Part shown: positions 4,171 to 23,123 of the stretch, in pieces
Layout: the number at the start of each line of letters is the position of its first letter
Position numbering within the stretch: position 1 is the first letter of the stretch
Made by a program: the position numbers and the translations under genes
The notes under the pieces: generated by a model
Database searches by the model: none
What the model was told of the DNA's origin: nothing
Seen by the model: the letters and a program-made list of their open reading frames with translations, nothing else
Assembly (NCBI RefSeq): GCF_023078475.1
Contig: NZ_CP095741.1
Coordinates: 4,030,001-4,094,000 of the forward strand
Source: Luteibacter aegosomaticola
GTDB lineage: Bacteria; Pseudomonadota; Gammaproteobacteria; Xanthomonadales; Rhodanobacteraceae
Length of the DNA stretch: 64,000 nt
Direction of reading: 5' to 3'

Positions 4171-4246
4171 TGGAGCGGGTCGCCGGATTCGAACCGGCAC
4201 CTCCAACCTTGGAAGGGTTGCACTCTGCCCGTTGAGCTAGACCCGC
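4171..4246 (-). tRNA. tRNA-Gly (anticodon TCC), phage-borne
   Basis: A 76-base cloverleaf on the minus strand: acceptor GCGGGTC paired with GACCCGC, T arm GCCGG-TTCGAAT-CCGGC, anticodon loop TTCCAAG giving anticodon TCC, discriminator T and an encoded CCA end. These are the usual traits of bacterial tRNA-Gly(UCC). It starts directly after the T-run of an intrinsic terminator and precedes the lysis genes, so it is probably carried by the late transcript. Confidence 0.93.
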
Positions 4247-4277
4247 AAATAAAAAAGCCCAGCGCAATGGCTGGGCT
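4247..4277 (-). terminator. Intrinsic terminator before late genes (tR'-like)
   Basis: On the minus strand AGCCCAG and CTGGGCT form a 7-bp stem with an 8-base loop, followed by TTTTTATTT that runs straight into the tRNA-Gly. Placed between the Q-like gene region and the lysis genes, it matches the position of lambda tR'. Confidence 0.8.
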
Positions 4278-4321
4278 AAATCGTTCGGTCGCACGAAGCG
4301 GCAGGAGCATTGTACAAATCA

Positions 4322-4349
4322 AAATTGAGGTCCGATACCTCAATTTTTT
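4322..4349. terminator. Bidirectional hairpin at end of GIY-YIG gene
   Basis: AAATTGAGGT and ACCTCAATTT form a perfect 10-bp stem around CCGAT. T-rich tracts follow on both strands (TTT on plus, TTTTGATTT on minus). It contains the stop codon of the GIY-YIG gene. Confidence 0.65.
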
Positions 4350-4879
4350 GGCCTTCGCCTTCCGCGGTATATGGCGTTGATAGCGGCGGCGCTTGTCACC
4401 TGTGACGCCTCGACCGCGCGGAGCCTATCCGCTTCCTCCCGATCCGCTTCTCTTTGCGCCGCTGCAGCCCTGGCCGACACGTCACGTGCGTGTAGGCTTC
4501 TCGATCGCTCGATGGCCTGGGAGGTGGTTGTCCCGACGAACGAGACGTCCCTCCAACCATCAGCAATGCCAAGGGCACCCACCGCCGCGTTTATCCGCGC
4601 CAGCACTTCCGGACTTAGCGATCCGACGAACCATTCCCCTGCGTGTCGCAGATCTTCGAGGGCCATATGGATCGCAGTTTCAGCCTCGACCGCTCGCGAG
4701 GGCTCGGTCATGTCCATCACGAGCATTCTTCGATATCTGACCGGGCTACCGGTCTGAAGCGCCGACAGGCGCGAGCGAAAGTGAGTAGCGGATCCCACCT
4801 TGAACCAAGCGTCGTCGGCGTGCTCAAACTCTACGATGTAGATTCCGCCCCTACCTGCGGACGACTCGGATAAACGCAC
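4340..4879 (-). CDS. GIY-YIG (T5orf172-type) nuclease-like protein
   Basis: About 179 residues. GGIYIVEFE followed by WFKVGSAT and a helix with Arg (FRSRLSALQTGSP) is the start of a T5orf172/GIY-YIG domain, and ETAIHMALEDLRHAGEWFVGS is its second half with the conserved Glu. The C-terminal 60 residues are a charged helix. The start chosen is GTG at 4879, six bases after GAGG; the ATG at 4948 would give 202 residues and a 98-base overlap with the upstream gene. Such proteins are common phage accessory nucleases; substrate unknown. Confidence 0.75.
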   Translation of the reverse strand: MRLSESSAGRGGIYIVEFEHADDAWFKVGSATHFRSRLSALQTGSPVRYRRMLVMDMTEPSRAVEAETAIHMALEDLRHAGEWFVGSLSPEVLARINAAVGALGIADGWRDVSFVGTTTSQAIERSRSLHARDVSARAAAAQREADREEADRLRAVEASQVTSAAAINAIYRGRRRPKN

Positions 4880-13326: not shown

Positions 13327-13646
13327 GCCGCGGGAATGCCGATCACATCACCGCGCCTCTCACCGAAGCTATCGAGCTCCTGCGGGTTGGCACGGAAAAC
13401 GGCACCTTCGATGCCGAAGATCTGATCGCAAAACTGCTCGTTGCGAAGTCCCGTAGCGAGCGCGCAGCCACCGCAGTTCACCTCGCTGAGAAGTTCGAGC
13501 ACCTGGTGCGTACCGCGCCGCTCGATGCCTGTACCGGCGTGCTCGGCCGGGATCTCGCGCGCGCCATCGCTTCGGCCAAGGGCATCCCCTCGGTCCTCGT
13601 CCACTACCAGCAGATGGCGCGTGATGCGCAGCCGGTGGCGGCATGA
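13323..13646 (+). CDS. Phage protein, unknown
   Basis: 107 residues, almost fully helical, starting GTG at 13323 that overlaps the previous stop (GTGA). No motif recognised. It ends with an ATGA overlap to the next gene, so the first four genes of the block look translationally coupled. Confidence 0.55.
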   Translation: MSRGNADHITAPLTEAIELLRVGTENGTFDAEDLIAKLLVAKSRSERAATAVHLAEKFEHLVRTAPLDACTGVLGRDLARAIASAKGIPSVLVHYQQMARDAQPVAA

Positions 13647-13924
13647 ACCAGTCCCTGCACCAGCGCCAGGCCCTCACGGCCTACAACATCGTCCAGGCTT
13701 CGAAGCGGCACGATTTGCGCGTGGCCGAGGCTGAGTACCGCCGTCCGGCACGCCCTAACGTCAAGGTTCGCGGCGTCGTTTCGAAGCCGCGCCGCGCTGC
13801 CCGCACGATGGACCGCATCCGCGCTTTCTGCGACTGGTTCGCCGACAACGGTTGGGTGTTGATCGTTGGACTTTGCCTCGCGGTTGCCCTGCTCTTCGGC
13901 CGCGCCAATGGGGTGATCCAGTGA
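13643..13924 (+). CDS. Small membrane protein
   Basis: 93 residues: a basic N-terminal half and one C-terminal membrane span (GWVLIVGLCLAVALLF) near residues 69-85. ATGA overlap upstream and GTGA overlap downstream. No family recognised. Confidence 0.55.
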   Translation: MNQSLHQRQALTAYNIVQASKRHDLRVAEAEYRRPARPNVKVRGVVSKPRRAARTMDRIRAFCDWFADNGWVLIVGLCLAVALLFGRANGVIQ

Positions 13925-14082
13925 GCCGAATCGAGCGGCGCATCGCAGGCGCCATCACCTGGTGGCAGTCCGCGCCCATCGACGAGAAAGCCGCCGTGGC
14001 GCTCTTGGTCCTGCCGCTCGTCCTCGTCCTGATCTTCGCCTCTGTCGCTCCAGCGCATCCCCTCCCTGCCCCCGTGCGCTGA
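13921..14082 (+). CDS. Small membrane protein
   Basis: 53 residues from GTG 13921. An amphipathic basic start (RIERRIAGAITWWQS) is followed by a strong hydrophobic span (VALLVLPLVLVLIFASVA) and a short proline-rich tail. Paired with the previous membrane protein; possibly a two-component membrane system, which is speculative. Confidence 0.5.
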   Translation: MSRIERRIAGAITWWQSAPIDEKAAVALLVLPLVLVLIFASVAPAHPLPAPVR

Positions 14083-14156
14083 GCGGCTTCACCCGAGCCC
14101 GGCGGCCTATCCGGGCACCCATTCAACAACGCCGGCACGGCCGGCAAGGAATCTCC

Positions 14157-14561
14157 ATGGACCGTTTCGACACCAGCACGACCGGCATCACCACCGACGC
14201 CGTCAGCGGCCTCATCTGGACGCGTGGCTACGCTACCGAGGGTGAGGTGAATTACGAGGACGCTGAAGCCGCCGTTGCCAAGCTCAACGAGCAGCAGTTC
14301 GGTGGCTTCTCCGATTGGCGCCTGCCGACGGTCAAGGAGCTCTTCGCCCTAGTCGACCACGAGCGCTTCAAGCCTGCGATCGACACCAACGCGTTTGAGT
14401 CGGGCGAGTACGACTGGGTGTGGTCCAGCACGCCCGTCGCGTCGGCTCCGGCCTTCGCCTGGGTCGTCGGCTTCTACCTCGGCGACGTCGGCTACGGCCA
14501 CCGTGGCTACGGCAACGCGTTCGTGCGCGCGGTGCGGTCGTCGTCGCCGGCCGGTCAGTAA
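14157..14561 (+). CDS. DGR variable protein 1 (DUF1566/Lcl domain)
   Basis: Target protein of the diversity-generating retroelement. All 134 residues form one Lcl (DUF1566) domain with the C-type-lectin/FGE fold used by DGR receptors: GLIWTRG, YEDAEAAVAKLN, GFSDWRLPTVKELFALVD, WVWSST. Residues 95-133 are coded by variable repeat VR1. Substituted positions are Gly, Tyr, Leu, Asp, Val and Phe, spaced as expected for a ligand surface. No signal peptide. AAGGA precedes the start. Unlike most phage DGR targets it is not visibly fused to a tail-fibre domain, and it is coded in the early block near the switch. Confidence 0.9.
   Translation: MDRFDTSTTGITTDAVSGLIWTRGYATEGEVNYEDAEAAVAKLNEQQFGGFSDWRLPTVKELFALVDHERFKPAIDTNAFESGEYDWVWSSTPVASAPAFAWVVGFYLGDVGYGHRGYGNAFVRAVRSSSPAGQ
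14439..14555 (+). repeat. DGR variable repeat 1 (VR1)
   Basis: 117 bp aligned without gaps to the template repeat at 19546-19662. It differs at 17 template adenines and one template T (AAT to GGC). The last ~40 bp (from GCGTTCGTGCG on) are identical. It encodes the C-terminal 39 codons before CAG-TAA. Confidence 0.95.
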
Positions 14562-14579
14562 TCGAACTTCGTACTGACC
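14553..14579 (+). promoter_or_regulatory. Hairpin at 3' end of VR1 (candidate IMH cruciform)
   Basis: GGTCAGTA (14553-14560) and TACTGACC (14572-14579) form a perfect 8-bp dyad around 11 bases, inside which CGA and TCG can also pair. In the Bordetella phage DGR a similar DNA hairpin just after VR aids retrohoming. Confidence 0.7.
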
Positions 14580-14584
14580 CTCTC

Positions 14585-14785
14585 ATGCCGCGCACACCCG
14601 ACATGTTCTCCGGCTGGTTCGACAACCAGTCCACCCAGCAGCGCGAGCACTGGGACAACGGGGTGCGCGGCCGCTTCGCCCACCGGCGCTGCATCGAGAC
14701 AAGCAACCCGTGGCCCGAGCTTCGCCCCGCATGGGGCACCAATCCCGACCTTCCGACTAACGCAGGAGCGCCAGCAACCGCATGA
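14585..14785 (+). CDS. Phage protein, unknown
   Basis: 66 residues, Trp/Pro-rich (MFSGWFDNQSTQQREHW, NPWPELRPAWG). It follows VR1 by 23 bases, so its leader includes the VR1 hairpin, and overlaps the methyltransferase start by ATGA. No family recognised. Confidence 0.5.
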   Translation: MPRTPDMFSGWFDNQSTQQREHWDNGVRGRFAHRRCIETSNPWPELRPAWGTNPDLPTNAGAPATA

Positions 14786-16152
14786 AAGCCACGATCCTCA
14801 CCGGTGATTGCCGCGAAGTCCTGCGCACTCTGGCGGAGAACAGCGTGGACGCGGTAGTTACCGATCCGCCCTACGGCCTCGAGTTTATGGGGAAGGACTG
14901 GGATGCCCCGTGGAAAGAGCAGGATTCAGCGGGTGGAAAAGTCTCAGGTTTTGGCCAGCCGGATGGCACGCCTTTTCGACATAAGCGCGGAACGCCCGCA
15001 TTCGGTGCAAACGGAAATCCCACGTGCGAAAACTGCGGAGGCGATAAGTATCGCAACGGACCGCGAAAATGCTCCTGCGAGCATCCATCTTTCCCTAACC
15101 ACGCTGCAGTCCAAATGCGAGCGTTCCAGGCGTGGTGCCAGGTATGGGCAACCGAATTGCTAAGGGTCGCCAAGCCAGGCGCGTATCTACTCGCTTTCGG
15201 CGGATCCCGTACGTATCACCGACTCACCGCAGCGCTCGAGGATTCCGGTTGGGAGATCCGCGACACGATCATGTGGATCTACGGCTCGGGCTTCCCTAAG
15301 TCGAAGAACGGCGAATGGGGTGGCACGGCGCTGAAGCCTGCGCACGAGCCGATAATCATGGCCCGAAAGCCGCTAATCGGGACCCAAGCGGCCAACTTCG
15401 AGGCTCATGGGACAGGCGGTCTGAACATCGCCGCGTGCCGCGTTCCGACCAGCGAGGACCTCTCTGGTGGCGCGTACAACAGCAAGGGCGCCCGCTCCAC
15501 CTCGCCCGCGATGAGCCCGACTGGAATGAATCGGCCTGGGGCAACGGCCGCGGGCGAGTTCGTGCAGCCGCCCGGACGCTGGCCAGCAAACGTCATCCAC
15601 GATGGCAGCGATGTGATCGTGGGTGCATTTCCCGATGCACCAGGTCAACAAGGCGACCTCTCAAATCACGCAGCATGCCGCCAAAGCCCCAATGGCATCT
15701 TCGGAGGAATGCGTCCGGCGCTCGACCACAAGGCGCGCAGCGACGCCGGCAGCGCGGCTCGCTTCTTCTATTGCGCTAAGACCACTCGGGCCGACCGAAA
15801 TGCCGGGCTGGGCGCCAGCGCCACGCTGGCCGTCGGCACGAACGCGACAATGCGCGATTGCGAGGACGCCGACTGGGAGGCGCGGAACGGAAACTTCCAT
15901 CCGACCGTCAAGCCGACCGAACTGATGCGGTACTTGTGCCGCCTGGTGACTCCGGCCGGTGGCACGGTTCTAGATCCGTTCATGGGATCCGGAAGCACTG
16001 GACGCGGCGCCGTGCTCGAAAACCGCCGCTTCATAGGCATCGAGATGGACCGAGCCTATGCCGCGATTGCGGCTGCACGTATTGCCTCAGCCGAAAGTGA
16101 TGTGGCCCAGGGCGCCGCCCAGGCCGACCTGTTCAAGGAATCTGCGGCATGA
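14782..16152 (+). CDS. Phage DNA methyltransferase (N6-adenine/N4-cytosine type)
   Basis: 456 residues. Motif IV DPPY (TDPPYGLEFMGKDW) near residue 28 comes first and motif I (DPFMGSGSTG, then RRFIGIEMD) near residue 400 comes last, the beta-class order. Target-recognition sequence lies between, with a zinc-like CENC...CSC segment at about 81-98. No restriction partner is adjacent, so it is an orphan enzyme likely protecting phage DNA or tuning expression. The next gene, overlapping by four bases, resembles the Mom DNA-modification family. Confidence 0.92.
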   Translation: MKATILTGDCREVLRTLAENSVDAVVTDPPYGLEFMGKDWDAPWKEQDSAGGKVSGFGQPDGTPFRHKRGTPAFGANGNPTCENCGGDKYRNGPRKCSCEHPSFPNHAAVQMRAFQAWCQVWATELLRVAKPGAYLLAFGGSRTYHRLTAALEDSGWEIRDTIMWIYGSGFPKSKNGEWGGTALKPAHEPIIMARKPLIGTQAANFEAHGTGGLNIAACRVPTSEDLSGGAYNSKGARSTSPAMSPTGMNRPGATAAGEFVQPPGRWPANVIHDGSDVIVGAFPDAPGQQGDLSNHAACRQSPNGIFGGMRPALDHKARSDAGSAARFFYCAKTTRADRNAGLGASATLAVGTNATMRDCEDADWEARNGNFHPTVKPTELMRYLCRLVTPAGGTVLDPFMGSGSTGRGAVLENRRFIGIEMDRAYAAIAAARIASAESDVAQGAAQADLFKESAA

Positions 16153-16652
16153 CGGCGAGCATGTTCCCCGCCGCTTCGTTCGAGACCGTGCCGCTGGCCA
16201 AGGCCAACGAGCTGCTCGAGGCATGGGGCCACAAGATGGGAGCGCTCCTGCGCGGCAACAGCGCAGCGCTCCACTGTCACGCCCTGTTCGTGCACGGGGA
16301 GCCGGTGGCGATCGCCTGCACGTCGAGCCTCATCCGTGAGCGCGTGGGCGGGGGACTCGGTCACCTGACCCGGGCCAATGCGGTCGAACTGAGCCGCCTC
16401 TGCGCTCGTGAGCCGTGGGCGTGCCGCGTAGCCCTGCGCCTATGGCGCGAGGTGGTCTTCCCCGGCCTCGGCGTTGCGGCAGCCATCAGCTACCAGGACG
16501 CGGATCTCCACACGGGCAATACCTACCGTTTCGACGGCTGGGCCCGCGCTGGCTACTCGCACAGCGGGAACGACAAACGCACCGGCCGCCAAGGTCGGGA
16601 CAAGTACATCTGGGTATGGCCGCCGCACGCGGCCTCAGGAATCGCAGCATGA
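16149..16652 (+). CDS. Mom-like GNAT acetyltransferase (putative DNA modification)
   Basis: 167 residues. The segment ANAVELSRLCAREP, a helix, and AISYQDADLHTGNTYRFDGWARAGYS follow the pattern of phage Mu Mom and related GNAT proteins (ELxRL, then SYxD...HxGxxYxxxxW). Mom converts adenine in phage DNA to an acetamido derivative and blocks restriction. Adjacent to a DNA methyltransferase, so the two may form an anti-restriction pair. The match is by eye; a general GNAT enzyme is the alternative. Confidence 0.6.
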   Translation: MTASMFPAASFETVPLAKANELLEAWGHKMGALLRGNSAALHCHALFVHGEPVAIACTSSLIRERVGGGLGHLTRANAVELSRLCAREPWACRVALRLWREVVFPGLGVAAAISYQDADLHTGNTYRFDGWARAGYSHSGNDKRTGRQGRDKYIWVWPPHAASGIAA

Positions 16653-17233
16653 CCACCACCATTTCCCCCGAAGACTTCGAGAAGGCCGTGCGCCGCGCGT
16701 GCGTGCGTGCCATCGCGCGCGCCGTAGCCAGCGAGCCACTGCGTGCCGGCGACCGAACCGCGGTGCAGCACGGCGCCGTGCTGAAGGACATTGCCGACGA
16801 GGCCGACCTGTCCATCCCGCAGACCAGGCGCCACATGCGAGTTCTGCAGGACGCCGGCAAGGCCATCCGCGACGATCGCCGCGGCGGTTCCACTGCCTGG
16901 TGGCTGGTCGGGTTGGCTGCCGAGCTCAAGGGCCCGGATCCGGTGTGCGCGCCTCGTCAGGGTGTGACGGCTATGCCCGTCGCCGCGCCGCCTGCGCATG
17001 CCGTGCCTTCGACCATAGCCGCGCGTCAGACCGTGACGACCCAGCGCGACAACTGGTGGGAAGTCCTCGGCGTCAACCAGGACGACTCGTTCCGTGACTG
17101 CACCGCCGCCTACCGCGAAGCCCATGCGCGCCTGCTTTCCGACGAAAGCCCCGAAGCGCCAGCCCTTATCGACCGCCTGAAGACCGCCTACGACGGCGCA
17201 GCCAAGGCCCACGAAGTACAGGTGACCGAATGA
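16649..17233 (+). CDS. Winged-helix protein with degenerate J domain
   Basis: 194 residues. The N-terminal half looks like a winged helix (GAVLKDIADEADLSIPQTRRHMRVLQDAGKAIRDDRRGGSTAWWL). A proline/alanine linker leads to NWWEVLGVNQDDSFRDCTAAYREAHARLLSDE, which has the shape of a DnaJ domain but lacks the HPD tripeptide. It overlaps the Mom-like gene by ATGA. Role unknown; it might recruit replication or chaperone machinery without activating DnaK. Confidence 0.6.
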   Translation: MTTTISPEDFEKAVRRACVRAIARAVASEPLRAGDRTAVQHGAVLKDIADEADLSIPQTRRHMRVLQDAGKAIRDDRRGGSTAWWLVGLAAELKGPDPVCAPRQGVTAMPVAAPPAHAVPSTIAARQTVTTQRDNWWEVLGVNQDDSFRDCTAAYREAHARLLSDESPEAPALIDRLKTAYDGAAKAHEVQVTE

Positions 17234-17520
17234 AACAGGTGATCGTTTTCCCTCGCGGGCAGCTGTCTCCCGAGGACCGCCGCCACATGTACGAGGCAGG
17301 CTTCGTTGCCGTCGAAGCCGACGACCCTTCAAAGGTGGTTCTGGCCGTGCCGCTCGCTGTCTCGGCGCCGACGCTTGGCACCGACGAACTGACGATGGCA
17401 CTGCTGCATGCCGTCGGCACGACGACTTGGGAGGAGCCGAAGCGGCTCTTCGCCGAAGAGATGCACCGCCGAGCCGTCGCGCGCGAGAAGTCCCTCGCAT
17501 CGTCGAAGACAGGAGACTGA
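17230..17520 (+). CDS. Phage protein, unknown
   Basis: 96 residues, ATGA overlap with the previous gene. Contains a beta-alpha pattern (QVIVFPRGQLSPEDRRHMYEAGFVAVEAD) and a charged helical end. No family recognised. Confidence 0.55.
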   Translation: MKQVIVFPRGQLSPEDRRHMYEAGFVAVEADDPSKVVLAVPLAVSAPTLGTDELTMALLHAVGTTTWEEPKRLFAEEMHRRAVAREKSLASSKTGD

Positions 17521-17522
17521 CG

Positions 17523-18140
17523 ATGGACATCAAGGACTATTTCCTGCGGGACGTTGCGTCTCACACCATGGAGGTGGTACGCGTGGATGGTGTGCATCGC
17601 CACCTGCGCTTCCGTCGCGGCGGGGAGTCGTACATCAACGGCTTCGACGTGATCACCTGGCCCGGCACGCTGTGCATCCAGGGAGACTGCGGAACGTACG
17701 TCTTCTCTCGGCTAACCGACATGTTCCAGTTCTTCCGCAGCCCTGATGGGCGGATCAATCCGTCGTACTGGCAAGAAAAGGTCGAGGCGCAAGATCGGAC
17801 GGGAGGCATCAAGGAATGGGATGAGCGATCGTTCCGTCAGAACGTAGTTCAGCGGTTCAGGGACTGGTGGCGTGAAAGCTATGAGTTCGGGGCAAGGCGA
17901 AAGTGCTGGCAGGAGCTTCGCACGCAGGTGCTGGAATGCAGCGAAAGCGAGTATGAAGCCATGCCCGCCGCCTACGCCTTCGAGTTCAGTGATGACGGAA
18001 TTTCCCCGACATTTCGCCTTGAAGACGCCTATGAGCTGGCAGGTGAGCGATACACCCGTCGCTTCCTCTGGAACTGCCACGCCATCGTCTGGGCAATCCA
18101 GCAGTTCGACGCCTCCAACTACTCGAACGAGGCTGCCTGA
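17523..18140 (+). CDS. Conserved phage protein, unknown
   Basis: 205 residues from MDIKDYFLRD at 17523. Beta-rich first half with WPGTLCIQGDCGTYVFSR and a Trp/Phe-rich second half (FRDWWRESYEFG, FLWNCHAIVWAIQQFD). Proteins with this outline occur in early regions of tailed phages of several proteobacteria; no function is known to me. Confidence 0.6.
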   Translation: MDIKDYFLRDVASHTMEVVRVDGVHRHLRFRRGGESYINGFDVITWPGTLCIQGDCGTYVFSRLTDMFQFFRSPDGRINPSYWQEKVEAQDRTGGIKEWDERSFRQNVVQRFRDWWRESYEFGARRKCWQELRTQVLECSESEYEAMPAAYAFEFSDDGISPTFRLEDAYELAGERYTRRFLWNCHAIVWAIQQFDASNYSNEAA

Positions 18141-18142
18141 CC

Positions 18143-18331
18143 ATGGACCAGCCCATCCGTCCCAGGTCGAGCAGCACGCGGAAGACTCGTATCCGCATGA
18201 TCCGCGACCAGCATGGCTTCACCCGGTATCAGCTGTCACACGACGGCGGCGTTGTTGTCGAGTCGTTGACCCTGGCCGGCGCGTGGAAATGGGCGAAGCA
18301 CGTCTGCAAGGCCAGGGGCATTACGCGATGA
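18143..18331 (+). CDS. Small basic phage protein
   Basis: 62 residues, Arg/Ser-rich start, then a short alpha-beta segment (GGVVVESLTLAGAWKWAKHVC). Overlaps the next gene by ATGA. No family recognised. Confidence 0.45.
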   Translation: MDQPIRPRSSSTRKTRIRMIRDQHGFTRYQLSHDGGVVVESLTLAGAWKWAKHVCKARGITR

Positions 18332-18495
18332 CGCCCGAGACATTCCGACCCGCTGTCGCCATCAGCGGCGATCGCATCCTCGTCTTCGTCGGCGCGGCTT
18401 ACCAGCCCATGTCCCTCGAAGCAGCTGAAACCCTATACGCCAAGCTCGGCGCCGCTATCGAGCAGGCAAAGCAGCAAACGGCCGATCAGGCCTGA
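18328..18495 (+). CDS. Small phage protein
   Basis: 55 residues; ATG 18328 overlaps the previous stop. Two short strands (PAVAISGDRILVFVG) and a helix (EAAETLYAKLGAAIEQAKQQ). No family recognised. Confidence 0.45.
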   Translation: MTPETFRPAVAISGDRILVFVGAAYQPMSLEAAETLYAKLGAAIEQAKQQTADQA

Positions 18496-18526
18496 CCCTC
18501 ACAGCCACGCACGAAAGGAACCCTGC

Positions 18527-19033
18527 ATGTCTTCCGTCAACATCCACACGCTCAACATCCATATCGGCTCGCCGCGCGCCCTTCTCAGCGTCCTTCCGGC
18601 CGACCTGCAGTACGCAACTGGCTTCGCACCTCACGCCGACGACGCCACCCGTTTTTCCGTCTCTGAGGATGGATCGATCGTCACCGATTCGAAGACCGGA
18701 CTGATGTGGTCCCAGGCGAACGTCGGCGCCAAGGGCAACTTCGAGAAGGCCGAGAAGGCCGTGGCGGAATGCCGCCTTGGTGGCCACGCCGATTGGCGCA
18801 TGCCGACCCGCGAAGAGCTCGAATCGATCCTCGACCTGACCCGTAGCGATCCGGCCATCGATCCTGTATTCGCGTGCGACTCGTCCTGGTACTGGAGCAG
18901 CACGGCTGTCGCGTCGGCTCCGGCCTACGCCTGGTTCGTCCTCTTCGCCTACGGCGACGTCAACGGCCTCCACCGTGGCAGCGGCGGCGCGTTCGTGCGC
19001 GCGGTGCGGTCGTCGTCGCCGGCCGGTCAGTAA
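18527..19033 (+). CDS. DGR variable protein 2 (DUF1566/Lcl domain)
   Basis: Second DGR target, 168 residues. A ~40-residue N-terminal extension is followed by the Lcl domain (GLMWSQAN, FEKAEKAVAECRLGGHADWRMPTREELESILD, WYWSST). Residues 129-167 are coded by VR2. Apart from the shared VR frame the two target proteins are clearly diverged, so the duplication is old or the VR cassette was moved between genes. AAAGGA precedes the start. It lies 22 bases before avd. Confidence 0.92.
   Translation: MSSVNIHTLNIHIGSPRALLSVLPADLQYATGFAPHADDATRFSVSEDGSIVTDSKTGLMWSQANVGAKGNFEKAEKAVAECRLGGHADWRMPTREELESILDLTRSDPAIDPVFACDSSWYWSSTAVASAPAYAWFVLFAYGDVNGLHRGSGGAFVRAVRSSSPAGQ
18911..19027 (+). repeat. DGR variable repeat 2 (VR2)
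   Basis: 117 bp, gapless against the template repeat; 17 adenine positions and one T position changed. The pattern of changes differs from VR1. The 12 bases after it (CAGTAATCGAAC) are shared with VR1 but not with the template. A dyad at its end (GGTCA / TGATCC, 19025-19050) is imperfect. Confidence 0.95.
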
Positions 19034-19054
19034 TCGAACCTTGGTGATCCTCCC

Positions 19055-19489
19055 ATGAGCTTCGTCCTCCCTCCCGTTATCAAGCTAGCCGAGCGCATGC
19101 TCGCCGACACGGAGCTTGCCGTGGCCACGTTCCCGCGTGCGCACCGGTATTCGTTCGGCAATGAGCTGCGCACGCAGGCAAGGGCCGTCTATCGCGTCGC
19201 GCTCGATGCGTGGCGATACAAGGCGACCCGTGCCCGCGCACTGGCCAATCTGGTACGGGAGGTGGACAACCTCAAGGGCGAGTTGCAGATCGGTCAGCGT
19301 ATCCGCGCATTCCGGAGCCTCGGACAGTTCGAGGCTCTGTTCCTCGTGGCGCGCGACCTAGGCAAGCAGGTTGGCGGATGGAACCGCCAATTTCACCCTC
19401 AAGGGCAGAATTCGCCGTCCACAGGACAGGCGAAGCGTTCCCAGATACTGAGTACCCGTCCCACCTCGAAACGGGAGGTCAATCGATGA
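19055..19489 (+). CDS. avd: DGR accessory variability determinant Avd
   Basis: 144-residue basic protein of the Avd/S23-like four-helix-bundle family. It forms a pentamer that binds template RNA and reverse transcriptase in known DGRs. Diagnostic features are the helix with FPRAHRYSFGNELR near residue 26, AYR-type helix VYRVALDAWRY, LVREVDNLKGELQIG, and the terminal GKQVGGWNRQ. It is slightly longer than the Bordetella protein (128) because of a Ser/Arg-rich tail. Its stop overlaps the start of the frame containing the template and reverse transcriptase (ATGA). Confidence 0.88.
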   Translation: MSFVLPPVIKLAERMLADTELAVATFPRAHRYSFGNELRTQARAVYRVALDAWRYKATRARALANLVREVDNLKGELQIGQRIRAFRSLGQFEALFLVARDLGKQVGGWNRQFHPQGQNSPSTGQAKRSQILSTRPTSKREVNR

Positions 19490-20871
19490 GGAAGTCGCGC
19501 TACCACCAGAACGGATGCTCGACCGGCTCGCAAGCGGATGGGGATGCGTCGGCTCCGGCCTACGCCTGGATCGTCAATTTCAACAACGGCAACGTCAACA
19601 ACAACCACCGTGACAACAACAACGCGTTCGTGCGCGCGGTGCGGTCGTCGTCGCCGGCCGGTGAGTGTCGGGGTGTCCGACATGGCAAGGATGCCGCCAC
19701 CTTCAGCGATATGTTCCACGCCCATAAGGCCGCTCGTCGTAACAAGCGCGCCAGCACCAACCAGATGCGTTTCGAGGCCAATTGGGCCGATGGCCTATTG
19801 AACCTCGCCCACCAGATCAACGCTTGTACCTGGTCGCCCGCACCAGCAGCCTGCTTCATCGCGAAGCGGCCGAAGGCGCGTGAGATCCACGCTCCCGACT
19901 TCGGCGACAGGATCGTTCACCACTGGCTCGTCCCTCAGATCGAGCGCATCTACGAGCCTACGTTCATCCATGACAGCTATGCCAACCGGCGCGGCAAGGG
20001 CACGCATGCGGCCATCGAACGGGTGAAGTCCATGGTCCGCGCCGTTCACAGCGGCCAGGGCGGTGGCTGGTATCTACAGCTCGACGTGCACAACTTCTTC
20101 AACTCGATCCACCGGCCGACGCTATACCGAATGCTCAAGGCGCGGCTTCAGCGTGCCGGCATATCCGCCTCGGCCATGCACGTGGTGCACGCCCTGCTCC
20201 GCCAGCCGGTATCGCGGCAGGGCATCGTGCATCAGGCCAGCCGGGCCGACCGCGAACTCGTTCCGCCGCACAAGCGGCTGGAGAACGCGCCGCCAGGCTG
20301 TGGGCTCCCGATCGGCAACCTGTCGTCCCAGTTTTTCGCCAACGTCTACCTCGACCGGCTGGACCAGTTCGTGAAGCACACCCTCAAGGCGCCGCGGTAC
20401 GTGCGCTATGTGGACGACTTCGTTCTGGTCCACCGCGATCGCTCGGTGTTGGAAGGCTGGAAGAGGGACATCGAGGAATTTCTCGGGAAGGAACTGCGCC
20501 TTTCCCTCAAGGCCGACGTGCGCCTCCGCCCACTGACCACCGGCATCGACTTTCTCGGGTACGTGATCTACCCGACCCATACCCGGGTCCGGGCACGCGT
20601 ACTGGCTCATGCCAACGAAGCACTGAGCGCCTGGGCTGCCCGACGCGTGCGCGAAGGTAACGTCACAGCGACGCCTGAGGAATTCCGGGGAGCGCGGTCG
20701 ATCTGGGCCAGCTACGAAGGGCATATGCGGCATGCGAACACGCACCGTCTCAGAGAGCGCTTCCTGCGGCGCTATACATGGCTTGCTGCTGTTGGCCGAC
20801 CCATTCGATTTGCCGTGGCGCTCGAAGGGCGATCGGTAGCGATACAAACGAAGGAGGTGAGTCGTGGGTGA
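19486..20871 (+). CDS. DGR reverse transcriptase
   Basis: Copies the template RNA with adenine infidelity to mutate the target genes. Core motifs: KAREIHAPDFGDRIVHHWLV, DSYANRRGKGTHAA, WYLQLDVHNFFNSI, GLPIGNLSSQFFANVYLDRLD (the DGR-specific motif 4), catalytic YVRYVDDFVLVH and GIDFLGYVI. The frame is open from ATG 19486, which overlaps the avd stop and follows GGGAGG, through the template repeat into the enzyme, giving 461 residues. A start at ATG 19711 would give 386 residues, closer to the usual size, but has no good ribosome site. Confidence 0.95.
   Translation: MRKSRYHQNGCSTGSQADGDASAPAYAWIVNFNNGNVNNNHRDNNNAFVRAVRSSSPAGECRGVRHGKDAATFSDMFHAHKAARRNKRASTNQMRFEANWADGLLNLAHQINACTWSPAPAACFIAKRPKAREIHAPDFGDRIVHHWLVPQIERIYEPTFIHDSYANRRGKGTHAAIERVKSMVRAVHSGQGGGWYLQLDVHNFFNSIHRPTLYRMLKARLQRAGISASAMHVVHALLRQPVSRQGIVHQASRADRELVPPHKRLENAPPGCGLPIGNLSSQFFANVYLDRLDQFVKHTLKAPRYVRYVDDFVLVHRDRSVLEGWKRDIEEFLGKELRLSLKADVRLRPLTTGIDFLGYVIYPTHTRVRARVLAHANEALSAWAARRVREGNVTATPEEFRGARSIWASYEGHMRHANTHRLRERFLRRYTWLAAVGRPIRFAVALEGRSVAIQTKEVSRG
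19546..19662 (+). repeat. DGR template repeat (TR)
   Basis: 117-bp adenine-rich template between avd and the reverse transcriptase core. It contains ten Asn codons (nine AAC, one AAT); randomised AAC (NNC) cannot become a stop. The last ~40 bp equal the VRs, after which TR reads GAG where both VRs read CAG. Confidence 0.95.
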
Positions 20872-21154
20872 AGCCAAGCGCCGTGGACCGCGTGAGCAGC
20901 GCGTGGCCTCTGCCATAGAGGCCATTGCTCAGGAGCGGGCGGAAGCGATTCGGCGCGCAGAGGAAGCTGAAACGCTGCGTCAGCAGCGGATTGCGGAGCG
21001 CTGGGCGAAGCTGTCGCCAGAGGAGAAGCAACGAAGGATCGCTATCGCGCAAGGCGAAGCCGCCTTGCTCGGGCACTTAGTTTCTATCCCCGGAAGTGGT
21101 GTGCTGGCTGCCGCCGGCGCACTCGGTGTTTTCTTTCGCAAGGGAGATCGGTGA
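20864..21154 (+). CDS. Phage protein, charged helix plus hydrophobic end
   Basis: 96 residues from GTG 20864 with AAGGAGGTGA upstream, overlapping the reverse transcriptase stop. Mostly a charged helix rich in Ala, Glu and Arg, then a glycine-rich hydrophobic segment (LVSIPGSGVLAAAGALGVFF) that may insert in membrane. No family recognised; not a known DGR component. Confidence 0.6.
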   Translation: MGEAKRRGPREQRVASAIEAIAQERAEAIRRAEEAETLRQQRIAERWAKLSPEEKQRRIAIAQGEAALLGHLVSIPGSGVLAAAGALGVFFRKGDR

Positions 21155-21501
21155 TGGGCTGGTCTATCGGCTACGACGACGAGTGGAAGCGCGACATCGG
21201 TTACGGCGTGCCGGCGATATGCGACCACCCAGGCTGTGGCGCCAGCATCGACCGTGGGCTGTCGTTCGTGTGCGGAAGCGAACCCTACGGCGGCGAGCAC
21301 GGCTGCGGCTTGTACTTCTGCGACGAGCACCGGATGTACGCGGGCGATCGCCGCGGCGACGCCCGGCTATGCGCTAAGTGCTACTGGAACCACGGTGGCA
21401 CCTTCATGCCCACGCCGGACACACCGGAATGGCTGAACCACAAATCCACCCACCCGAGCTGGGCGGAGTGGCGAGCAGGACAGGAGGCGGCTAAGTCGTG
21501 A
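21154..21501 (+). CDS. Cys-rich phage protein, zinc ribbon-like
   Basis: 115 residues with CDHPGC, CGSEPYGGEHGCGLYFCDEH and CAKCYWNH, enough Cys and His for two zinc sites. ATG 21154 is preferred; a GTG three bases earlier is also possible. Function unknown. Confidence 0.6.
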   Translation: MGWSIGYDDEWKRDIGYGVPAICDHPGCGASIDRGLSFVCGSEPYGGEHGCGLYFCDEHRMYAGDRRGDARLCAKCYWNHGGTFMPTPDTPEWLNHKSTHPSWAEWRAGQEAAKS

Positions 21502-21713
21502 GCGTAAATCACCACATCATCGACGCGGCGGAACTTCGGCGCCTGTCCGGGCTTCAGCAGCCGGCAGCGGTGAAGCGGTGGGCAAGTGCGCAAGGCATCC
21601 GTGTCAAGGATGGTGCCGAGGGTCCCTGGACCACTCTGGAGGCGCTCAACGCCTCGATGGGCGTAGGATCGGCCGGAAACGATGACGCCTACCGGCCAGA
21701 GGATCTGCTGTGA
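21498..21713 (+). CDS. DUF4224-like protein, candidate excisionase
   Basis: 71 residues from GTG 21498. DAAELRRLSGLQQPAAVKRWASAQGI with a following beta strand fits the DUF4224 family found directly upstream of phage integrases and probably acts as a DNA-binding directionality factor. It overlaps the integrase start by four bases. Confidence 0.65.
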   Translation: MSVNHHIIDAAELRRLSGLQQPAAVKRWASAQGIRVKDGAEGPWTTLEALNASMGVGSAGNDDAYRPEDLL

Positions 21714-22864
21714 CGCGAGGTCGCCCCCGCAAGAAAGACCGCACCATCCCCGAGCACATCGACCAGGCGAAGCTGCCGGTAGGGTGTTACTGGGACGCCC
21801 GCGATCGCGTCTGGTACACGATCCACCGTGCGCCCAAGCCGAGGCGTCAGAAGGTCGCCGGCGCCGATGCGCTGATGTCCGACCTTCATTTGGCAATGGA
21901 GACGATTCGTGGTGTCGATCGAAAAGCGCTCAACTGGCTCCTCGATCAGTACCACACCAGCCATGTGTTCACCGCCCTGTCGATACGGACACAGTCCGAT
22001 TACGGGCGCCAGCGAGAACTAGTTCGCACGCTAGCCCTCAAGGATGGGAGCACCCTGGGTGCCTTGGACTATGGTCGCCTGAATACCGCGTTCTTCCAGC
22101 GCCTGGTCGACAAGATCGCTGGAGAGGGTACTCCAACGAAGGCGAACCACCTGATGCGCTACCTTCGTCTGGTCTACTCCTGGGCAGTCCGCCGCGGTTT
22201 CGTGGCGGTGAACCCAGTTAAGGGAACAGCCCAGGCGACGGAGCGAAAGCAACGCAGGCTCCCGCGCCCCGAAGTTATGGCCGCGCTCGTCAGGATGGCC
22301 TACGAAGGCGGACAACTACAGGCACGCATTAAGGGAAGCTGTCCGCCCTATCTCTGGGCGATCGCCGACATTGCTTACCTGTGCCGCCTCCGTGGTATCG
22401 AGGTGGTCACGCTTCCAGAGAGCCATGGTCTCGAGGCAGGGATCCAGACCAATCGGCGTAAGGGCAGCCGAGACAACATCGTTGCCTGGACTCCGCGGCT
22501 ACGCATGGCCTGGGACGCACTCATTCGCTACCGGGACGCCATCTGGAAAGCTGCGGGAATGCCTGTGCCGATCCGAGCCGAAAACCGCCCGCTAGTCGTG
22601 GCAGAGCATGGCGGCGCGCTGAAGAAAAGCAGCCTCGACTCGGCGTGGCAGCGCATCAAGAAGCGCGCTATCCGCGAGAATGTAATCACCGAGGAAGACT
22701 GGTTTGGCCTCCACGATCTGAAACGCCGCGGCGTGACGGACACGGCGGGGAATCGCGCTGATAAACAGGAAGGTAGCGGGCATCGCACAGAATCGATGAT
22801 GGACGTCTACGACCTCAGTCTACCGATCGTTCCAGCCGCTGGATCTGCCAAAATCGCCCCGTAA
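21710..22864 (+). CDS. int: Phage tyrosine integrase
   Basis: 384 residues starting GTG at 21710. N-terminal arm-binding part (GRPRKKDRTIPEHIDQAKLPVGCYWDARDRVWYT), core-binding helices, then the catalytic domain: first Arg in LCRLRGIEVVTLP, HDLKRRGVTD, and GHRTESMMDVYD with the Tyr nucleophile. It inserts the phage at the 3' end of tRNA-Lys; the matching fragment lies 96 bases downstream. The close relation of the DGR block and int suggests one long rightward transcript. Confidence 0.93.
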   Translation: MTRGRPRKKDRTIPEHIDQAKLPVGCYWDARDRVWYTIHRAPKPRRQKVAGADALMSDLHLAMETIRGVDRKALNWLLDQYHTSHVFTALSIRTQSDYGRQRELVRTLALKDGSTLGALDYGRLNTAFFQRLVDKIAGEGTPTKANHLMRYLRLVYSWAVRRGFVAVNPVKGTAQATERKQRRLPRPEVMAALVRMAYEGGQLQARIKGSCPPYLWAIADIAYLCRLRGIEVVTLPESHGLEAGIQTNRRKGSRDNIVAWTPRLRMAWDALIRYRDAIWKAAGMPVPIRAENRPLVVAEHGGALKKSSLDSAWQRIKKRAIRENVITEEDWFGLHDLKRRGVTDTAGNRADKQEGSGHRTESMMDVYDLSLPIVPAAGSAKIAP

Positions 22865-22959
22865 AAGTCGCCGCCAAGCGATTGAAAAAGTTGAATCGCT
22901 TCCGGGGAAAATCCGTAAAATTAATTACTGTAAGTACTCGGAATCGTTGAAGACTACAC

Positions 22960-23008
22960 CGGACTTTTAATCCGTAGGTCGACGGTTCGAATCCGTCACG
23001 ACCCACCA
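22960..23008 (+). other. attR: 3' fragment of tRNA-Lys (anticodon TTT)
   Basis: From the anticodon stem on the sequence is a tRNA: loop CTTTTAA, T arm GACGG-TTCGAAT-CCGTC, acceptor ACGACCC, ACCA end. The 5' acceptor strand and D arm are absent upstream, so it is a displaced 3' end created by integration. Confidence 0.88.
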
Positions 23009-23123
23009 TTTTGCATCGGAGCCTGGCGCGCCGAGGCTGTTGCCTCCTTCTTGCGCTCCCGCCCTCTGACACTCGCTCTTACGCCACCTCCTTTCCTAAC
23101 GAGCTCTCGTCGGGGAGGTCTTC

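Follow-up and report, generated by a model that had tools for sequence, protein, structure and literature searches.

Where does a retroelement that keeps two genes of one prophage variable hold its template, and which RNA does it copy? These questions are raised by a locus of Luteibacter aegosomaticola (Rhodanobacteraceae), contained in a stretch of 64,000 nucleotides, here called the window (positions 4,030,001 to 4,094,000 of contig NZ_CP095741.1, assembly GCF_023078475.1). Positions 14,157 to 20,871 of the window hold a diversity-generating retroelement (DGR) with a reverse transcriptase (RT), an Avd protein, a template repeat (TR) and two target genes, each with a variable repeat (VR). We read it as the mutagenic-retrohoming DGR of a temperate phage, in which the avd-RT messenger would itself be the template RNA and the RT would be translated through the TR, and give this reading a probability of about 80%. 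The sequences themselves display adenine-specific edits at both targets, concerted evolution of the targets, a selected open frame flanking the TR and covariation of an RNA fold. What is new is the overlap seen in the group to which this element belongs: template, structured RNA, avd and RT gene share a single coding stretch, and the covarying RNA is on the 5' side of the TR. The position of the TR inside the RT frame, the covarying fold bordering it and a T-to-C difference pointing to an older TR go beyond a preliminary description of the window.

Two edited target genes in a prophage

That a prophage here carries a complete DGR with two edited targets had been proposed in the preliminary description, and realignment of the three repeats, Pfam and PHROG matches, att repeats and phage genes bear this out (Table 1). 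VR1, VR2 and TR align without gaps over 117 nt at the positions first described, with 18 differences between either VR and the TR; 17 of these fall on the 24 TR adenines and one on a T, as had been counted. At least 17 adenines among 18 changed sites would be reached by random choice with a hypergeometric P of ~5e-14, and the adenine enrichment to which the element had been tied is thus upheld. A DNA search of the 5.09-Mb genome returned only three copies of the TR sequence, namely TR, VR1 and VR2, and a protein search a single RT of the DGR kind. The RT, described earlier as intact with YVDD and GLPIGNLSSQ, indeed has an uninterrupted frame containing RYVDDF and GLPIGNLSSQ and matches RVT_1 (58.9 bits) and PHROG 1423 (326 bits). 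Its AlphaFold2 (AF2) model, built from an alignment of 26 of the 59 loci introduced below, has the DGR RT of phage BPP-1 as top Foldseek match (8ub7; TM 0.87 by target length). The avd product matches PHROG 3206 (1.6e-11), its Pfam bAvd score of 21.7 bits being below the cut-off of 40. Both targets carry Lcl_C, in agreement with a C-type-lectin fold around the VR; the best solved match of the AF2 model of target 2 (alignment of 44 out of 119 VR-bearing targets) is the Lcl C-terminal domain 8q4e (E 4e-5), the sole PDB match at E <=0.001, followed in rank by C-type lectins. DUF1566 is reported in passages of PMC6642488 as the commonest Pfam domain among DGR targets.

Relatives of the element were collected by RT searches, the first of which gave 53 loci (13 of the group, 40 outgroup), while the search of IMG/VR found 98, with 80 kept (45 of the group, 16 outgroup, 19 left aside). 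Together with the window, the 13 close loci from named records and the 45 from IMG/VR make up a group of 59 loci, referred to by L numbers, 52 of them with distinct RT DNA. The relatives from named records belong to Dyella, Arenimonas, Stenotrophomonas (a genus of the same bacterial order as the window's host), Rhodanobacter, Xanthomonas, Luteimonas, Rudaea and Solimonas, or are other metagenome-assembled genomes (MAGs). Scanning for TR and VR showed both in each of the 59 loci: two VRs in 44, three in nine (including L079, a split row) and one in six, some on short contigs, so that 53 have two or three. The 121 VR rows represent 120 VRs, one VR of L079 being counted as two pieces. Across these rows, 1700 of 2772 TR adenines are changed, against 17 of 10434 other positions, and the VR base at TR adenines is A in 1072, G in 922, T in 531 and C in 247 cases. 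With one to three VRs each, the 59 loci are a resource on how one element keeps several genes variable.

Targets of the same locus have diverged from each other, with a median amino acid identity of 38.5% outside the VR in 68 within-locus pairs. Within the VR, these pairs are 95.9% identical at non-adenine sites, a figure that counts every row including four out-of-register ones (L008, L010, L014, L079), and 35.8% at adenine sites. Since the paralogues diverge outside the VR yet are near-identical at its non-adenine sites, retrohoming appears to keep editing all targets; the same figures led us to reject an origin of the VR similarity by ordinary gene duplication. The earlier statement that both targets were really edited is strengthened further by a comparison of L087 and L098, whose two targets have diverged by 1.6% and 2.4% over the 250 nt preceding the VR and whose VRs differ at 13 and 11 sites, all of them TR adenines. 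Other locus pairs with at most 5% upstream difference have 0 to 4 non-adenine VR differences. In L108:6135-6665, compared with L069:3457-4496, the upstream part of target 1 (250/250 nt) is fused within the VR to the downstream part of target 2 (500/500 nt); a target seems to have been lost there through recombination between VRs, with misassembly possible in both of these metagenome contigs. One DGR serving several DUF1566 targets is also described in passages of PMC6642488 for Stenotrophomonas sp. SKA14, where two TRs go with six VRs, five of these in DUF1566 proteins. DGRs with two targets make up about 13%, as cited in part of PMC10743442.

The 3' border of the repeats suggests, by its sequence, an initiation-of-mutagenic-homing site (IMH) in the VR distinct from IMH* in the TR. 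Of 121 VR rows, 116 have C as the first base 3' of the repeat, and of 59 TR rows, 58 have G there. Most VRs are followed by CAG and a stop codon, the TR by GAG and a sense codon; the base that would distinguish donor from recipient therefore adjoins the change that removes the stop and permits read-through. As a separate observation, a motif near CAGTAATTGGCCTTTTGG, read by eye, lies 3' of many VRs group-wide, past the repeat proper, and the recognition site perhaps extends to ~18 nt beyond the VR.

The prophage is about 46.0 kb long and is integrated at tRNA-Lys (gene at L058:16973-17048), with a 54-bp repeat of the tRNA-Lys 3' end (98% identity) as attL at C1:4006997-4007050, to the left of the window, and as attR inside it. 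Its left half lies beyond the window, and the DGR is at the integrase end. A scan of 30 predicted prophage proteins assigned terminase, portal, head maturation protease, major head, sheath, tape-measure, baseplate, fibre-assembly, endolysin, DnaB-like, CII-like and Q-like genes to the minus strand, whereas the DGR stands on the plus strand together with a repressor-like gene, a methyltransferase and an integrase. With att repeats, integrase, repressor, structural and lysis genes all recognised, the prophage is predicted to be a temperate phage. Because the DGR shares its strand with the repressor-like gene and the integrase and the structural genes are on the other, the targets lie outside the tail module. 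A 288-aa glycine-rich protein encoded between the baseplate genes and the fibre-assembly gene (L059:1431-2297) is probably the tail fibre of the prophage, separate from the DGR targets, as judged by its position.

As for the role of the targets, we slightly favour variable binders acting early or in lysogeny over virion adhesins. That they are tail-tip adhesins setting host range, like Mtd in BPP-1, is a credible second choice: viral targets in several DGR clades are mostly annotated as tail proteins in passages of PMC8144416, and the seven viral fold matches at E <=0.001 include two DUF1566 proteins, one with a peptidase S74 domain, one with collagen repeats and one named virion structural protein. 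Their small size of 134 and 168 aa speaks against it, no further domain being found by Pfam, and the earlier remark that no tail-fibre domain is visible agrees with both Pfam and PHROGs. Nor does their place beside the repressor-like gene and the integrase, opposite in strand to the structural genes, or the presence of a separate fibre-like gene next to the fibre-assembly gene, fit an adhesin well. Furthermore, the integrase follows the RT by 0.9-6.4 kb in 18 of the 20 IMG/VR records having a recognised integrase, L080 and L087 carrying it at the opposite record end.

The changes in VR1 and VR2 had been called two independent sets of 17. They are mostly, not wholly, separate: 12 adenines are altered in both VRs, four of these went to the same base, and the single non-adenine difference is an identical T-to-C in VR1 and VR2. 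It lies at 19578 (TR index 32), where the TR codon AAT has C as third base in both VRs, a synonymous difference. This codon, read in 56 of 59 TRs, is AAT in 34, AAC in 19 and another in three, and the close relatives L004, L016, L066 and L109 are absent from the AAT list. Since both VRs carry C and these relatives are not listed with AAT, the TR of the window probably mutated after both VRs were last written, which suggests that both derive from an older TR version. The shared C hints that neither VR has been rewritten across 19578 since the TR changed, as if the element, though intact in sequence, were inactive in this prophage. We consider such inactivity unlikely, given that RT, avd and both targets are open, that a single synonymous TR change may be very recent and that fresh edits are seen in relatives.

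The template repeat inside the RT reading frame

The RT gene most likely starts at ATG 19486, upstream of the TR and not after it, as judged from frame, start codon and selection analyses. The RT frame is open through the TR in all 59 loci, with a start codon 54-68 nt upstream of it, and the TR is read in the frame of the targets in 56 (exceptions are L014, L015 and its duplicate L104). RT start and avd stop overlap as ATGA in 57 loci, the other two having GTGA (L091) and GTGG (L014). Four loci (L091, L100, L103 and L107) lack any ATG, GTG or TTG in the stretch that begins 40 nt upstream of the TR 3' end and extends over the first 20 codons of the RT match. A Shine-Dalgarno-like GGGAGG (19473-19478) precedes ATG 19486 in the window, where none was found before the internal ATG 19711.

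Both parts of the frame that adjoin the TR, the leader and the linker, evolve as coding sequence. In 301 pairs from 49 distinct loci, differences at codon positions 1, 2 and 3 amount to 0.059, 0.056 and 0.146 in the leader and to 0.054, 0.035 and 0.183 in the linker, and the ratio of nonsynonymous to synonymous differences per site (pN/pS) is 0.25 in the leader, 0.30 in the linker and 0.20 in the RT, the pairs being non-independent. L014, L015, L104 and L108 were excluded from the analyses of dN/dS and of synonymous differences (pS), and 36 loci entered an almost identical set of pairs in the synonymous-rate work described below. As leader and linker both lie outside the TR/VR repeat, this codon bias is not inherited from the targets. 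The linker occurs in nine lengths of 27 to 51 nt, and only that of 46 nt (L015/L104) is not a multiple of three. A mere chance effect of high G+C was tried as an explanation of the open frame and is insufficient for the group, considering the codon bias, pN/pS, the four start-less loci and the linker lengths. The TR-encoded stretch is probably a disordered N-terminal tail of the RT, with a mean pLDDT of about 31 over residues 1-67 of the model and mostly 85-95 in the core.

Outside the group, the arrangement is variable. A TR could be located in 23 of 56 outgroup loci (RT identity 23-41%), and in 22 of them it is upstream of the RT; three of these 22 (L032, L040, L056) have an RT frame that is open through the TR, the other 19 do not. 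Seven sister phages (L147-L153) have an RT frame open through the TR in six cases and closed within the TR in L152, and the TR is out of the target frame in 6/6 annotated ones. The BPP-1 record has a brt frame that is open across the TR, with the annotated gene starting after it, and high G+C may account for the open frames of BPP-1 and of the sister phages. These loci, together with the presence of ATG 19711, are what can be said for an RT that starts at an internal codon after the TR, the open frame being a by-product of high G+C and a target-coding TR, an explanation that the ATGA overlap, the start-less loci, the coding selection on leader and linker and the missing Shine-Dalgarno motif make quite improbable for the group.

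For a translated TR, one published precedent was found. In the Pseudoalteromonas phages ACA1 and ACA2, as described in section 3.13 of PMC10612066, the TR is likewise translated as an N-terminal RT extension in the target frame; their single target, in contrast, is an antireceptor within the tail module. The record of ACA1 has the TR inside the annotated RT and in target frame, that of phiWae15 outside. The ACA locus L155 gave neither an RT-15 match (see below) at the gathering score nor a match to the RNA of our group. According to the parts of these sources that bear on it, the TR is intergenic in most cases (PMC8144416), DiGReF structural group 3 is handled as a layout class (PMC3521204), and N-terminal extensions concern targets, not RTs (PMC10907252).

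A covarying RNA fold bordering the template repeat

Synonymous change is reduced at the avd-RT junction. Synonymous rates are 0.065-0.10 in the last 30 avd codons, where nonsynonymous rates are 0.06-0.15, compared with 0.16-0.23 in the leader, 0.004-0.076 in the TR and 0.2-0.6 in the rest of the RT frame. RNA alignments of 30 of the 59 loci, picked for diversity and covering the 100 nt that precede the RT start and everything up to the tenth nucleotide of the TR, yielded an RNAalifold consensus fold, R1, of 27 pairs, 20 of them with compensatory changes on both sides. In comparison with shuffled alignments, 97.3% versus 83.0% of paired cells can pair, both-side changes number 104 versus 24.9 and the covariation score is 0.425 versus 0.159, none of 500 shuffles being as high; the shuffles ignore kinship. 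Sliding the partner columns by 1-3 lowers pairing to 28-50%, a control that flatters the fold because R1 was derived from the same alignment. R1 covers the last ~29 avd codons and the first 19 RT codons, and 3 nt separate its outermost pair from the TR. Part of the RT Shine-Dalgarno is paired in helix 4, and helix 5 begins at the G of the RT ATG. Folded alone, the window RNA has a minimum-energy structure nearly equal to the consensus, with the helix 4 hairpin included.

A covariance model of R1, with ends fixed by alignment trimming and the window among its training sequences, gave 110.6 bits for the held-out locus L015 and a weak match in the right place of L014 (16.4 bits, E 0.076). On 30 sister, BPP-1 and outgroup loci, it produced weak signals in L017 and L054 only. 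Among 398 genomes of the order, there were 12 matches, 10 of which, including the window, exceeded 100 bits. In all ten strong loci, an Avd lies upstream, the RT frame begins with an ATGA start and stays open through a TR, and one or more VRs are present; six of the ten are new elements (L157, L158, L162, L163, L165 and L166). The matches in L167 and L168 (<30 bits) are taken as chance because no RT motif lies beside either.

Template, spacer RNA and RT gene follow one another in BPP-1, which serves as the reference DGR, whereas the DGR RNA of our group apparently lies within coding sequence, with its fold on the other side of the TR. Both share the RT fold, Avd, adenine-specific copying from TR to VR, a VR at the 3' end of the target and a phage as carrier. 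BPP-1 has one target, Mtd, annotated as tail protein, a TR outside the annotated brt gene and the RNA RF03022 3' of the TR; the window has two small targets away from the tail genes, a TR inside the RT frame and the covarying RNA 5' of it. A fold 3' of the TR, as in BPP-1, was sought in 142 nt around and after the TR 3' end of 30 loci and not found (5 pairs at -0.16 kcal/mol), and window positions 13500-21500 held no match to Rfam Phage_DGR (RF03022). Passages of PMC12875486 place a spacer RNA between TR and brt in BPP-1 and describe a motif in the 3' end of avd that terminates cDNA synthesis; the constraint on this end of avd in our group agrees with it.

A closer parallel to R1 is RT-15 (RF03018), which is present in phage DGRs of Pseudomonas, Burkholderia and Shewanella. 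In the seven sister phages (Magia, phPA-G, Haboob, QDWS, LPPA56, SC_8 and Cruim01), which have two VRs each, RT-15 is found between avd and TR, its last 2-3 nt falling within the TR. R1 takes the same place, and a comparison by eye shows the same order of helices in both: a 3-bp stem, a 5-nt spacer, a hairpin, a 4-nt spacer, a closing stem, 13 or 14 unpaired nucleotides and a multibranch. Where annotated, the avd product of the sister phages has 118-120 aa and its gene reaches no further than 17-18 nt into the RNA, whereas the avd of the window is longer (144 aa) and its tail coincides with the 5' part of R1. RT-15 had no match in positions 13500-21500 at E up to 5, the one listed match being an unrelated family far below its cut-off, and the R1 model had none on the sister loci, including L153 searched without filters (best 6.2 bits elsewhere). 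As RT-15 misses the window and R1 misses the sister loci, we call R1 an RT-15 analogue, possibly homologous, and not a member. The simplest history is that avd and RT genes both grew into the RNA. A search of 369 genomes of the class for RT-15 gave no match, nor did 14 controls, so that this negative carries no information. That RT-15 coincides with the TR 5' flank in seven phage DGRs points to a DGR role for this Rfam family, and scaffold, priming and RT dosage become testable through comparison of the two natural designs. Neither the arrangement shared by the group nor a role of RT-15 as the 5' portion of a DGR RNA was met in the literature searched, although the paper naming the RT motifs (Weinberg 2017), which was outside the search, may say so.

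Taken as a mechanism, our preferred reading is that a temperate phage with a contractile tail carries a mutagenic-retrohoming DGR, whose RT and Avd would copy the TR-holding RNA into cDNA with random bases at adenines; this cDNA would then replace the VRs at the 3' ends of two small C-type-lectin-type genes. The avd-RT messenger itself would be the template, the RT would be translated from a start overlapping the avd stop and running through the TR, and R1 might be the scaffold for an Avd-RT complex. Because the fold pairs the RT ribosome-binding site, folding as template and translation as mRNA would be mutually exclusive. From this we tentatively derive a two-state model, which is rather speculative: folded, the RNA would hide the RT ribosome-binding site and start and offer the TR to Avd-RT; opened by ribosomes finishing avd, it would be a messenger with the TR translated. 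Mutagenesis would thus be balanced against RT synthesis, the scaffold would lie 5' of the template, and the lectins would act outside the virion.

Besides the T-to-C common to both VRs, three observations weigh against our preferred reading. Perfect stems of at least 6 bp were sought within 70 nt 3' of both window VRs and none was found, unlike the hairpin of BPP-1 described in part of PMC3240598. The TR is read in a frame other than that of the targets in L014, L015, L104 and L166, so that the exact TR peptide is not essential; as the RT frame stays open in L015/L104 and L166 all the same, it is the open frame that is kept. Finally, the window RNA by itself has a z score of -1.05, with 28 of 200 shuffles folding as well.

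Features and gene neighbourhood of the element

Table 1. Features of the DGR and its surroundings in the window.
Feature	Position	Strand	Basis
Target 1, 134 aa, stand-alone Lcl_C (DUF1566)	14157..14561	+	Pfam PF07603 109.3 bits
VR1	14439..14555	+	17/24 TR adenines changed, 1 other
IMH-like junction after VR1, CAG TAA TCGAAC, includes target stop	14556..14567	+	First-base rule in VR/TR rows
DNA methyltransferase between targets	14782..16152	+	PF01555 113.7 bits; PHROG 67
Target 2, 168 aa, Lcl_C after ~40 low-confidence residues	18527..19033	+	Pfam PF07603 95.1 bits; AF2
VR2	18911..19027	+	17/24 TR adenines changed, 1 other
IMH-like junction after VR2, CAG TAA TCGAAC	19028..19039	+	First-base rule
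avd, 144 aa; last ~29 codons overlap structured RNA R1	19055..19489	+	PHROG 3206 45 bits
Structured RNA R1; outermost paired bases 19403 and 19542	19401..19546	+	RNAalifold covariation; cmsearch 129 bits
Helix 4 hairpin, ACCT 19463-19466 pairs AGGT 19476-19479	19463..19479	+	Consensus fold and window minimum-energy fold
RT open reading frame, 461 aa, most likely leader, TR peptide and RT; ATGA overlap with avd stop	19486..20871	+	Frame, start and selection analyses
TR, within RT open reading frame, target frame	19546..19662	+	Alignment, frame comparison
Tyrosine-type integrase near right prophage end, 0.84 kb after RT	21710..22864	+	PHROG 1 90 bits, PHROG 14425 208 bits; no Pfam match
attR, 54-bp copy of tRNA-Lys 3' end	22957..23010	+	98% over 54 bp

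By tblastn, a related Avd was present in all 58 relatives, the methyltransferase of the window in one and its integrase in 11, many contigs being short. On these counts, the element seems to be mobile between phage backbones. Pfam recognised an integrase in 24 of 38 records and none in 14; its distance downstream of the RT is about 3 to 12 kb in four named phages. Two small genes stand between RT and integrase in the window; the first (20864-21154) was without a relative in the 58 loci, and the second (21154-21501) had relatives only in L007 and L074.

L014, from a gammaproteobacterial MAG, has targets of 549 and 174 aa flanking the RT (L014:342-1991 and 4180-4704), with N-termini that appear by eye to be lipoprotein- or signal-like, and its DGR looks cellular, not phage-borne. 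The target at L086:5583-6122 has a hydrophobic, possibly signal-like N-terminus, provided that its start call is correct.

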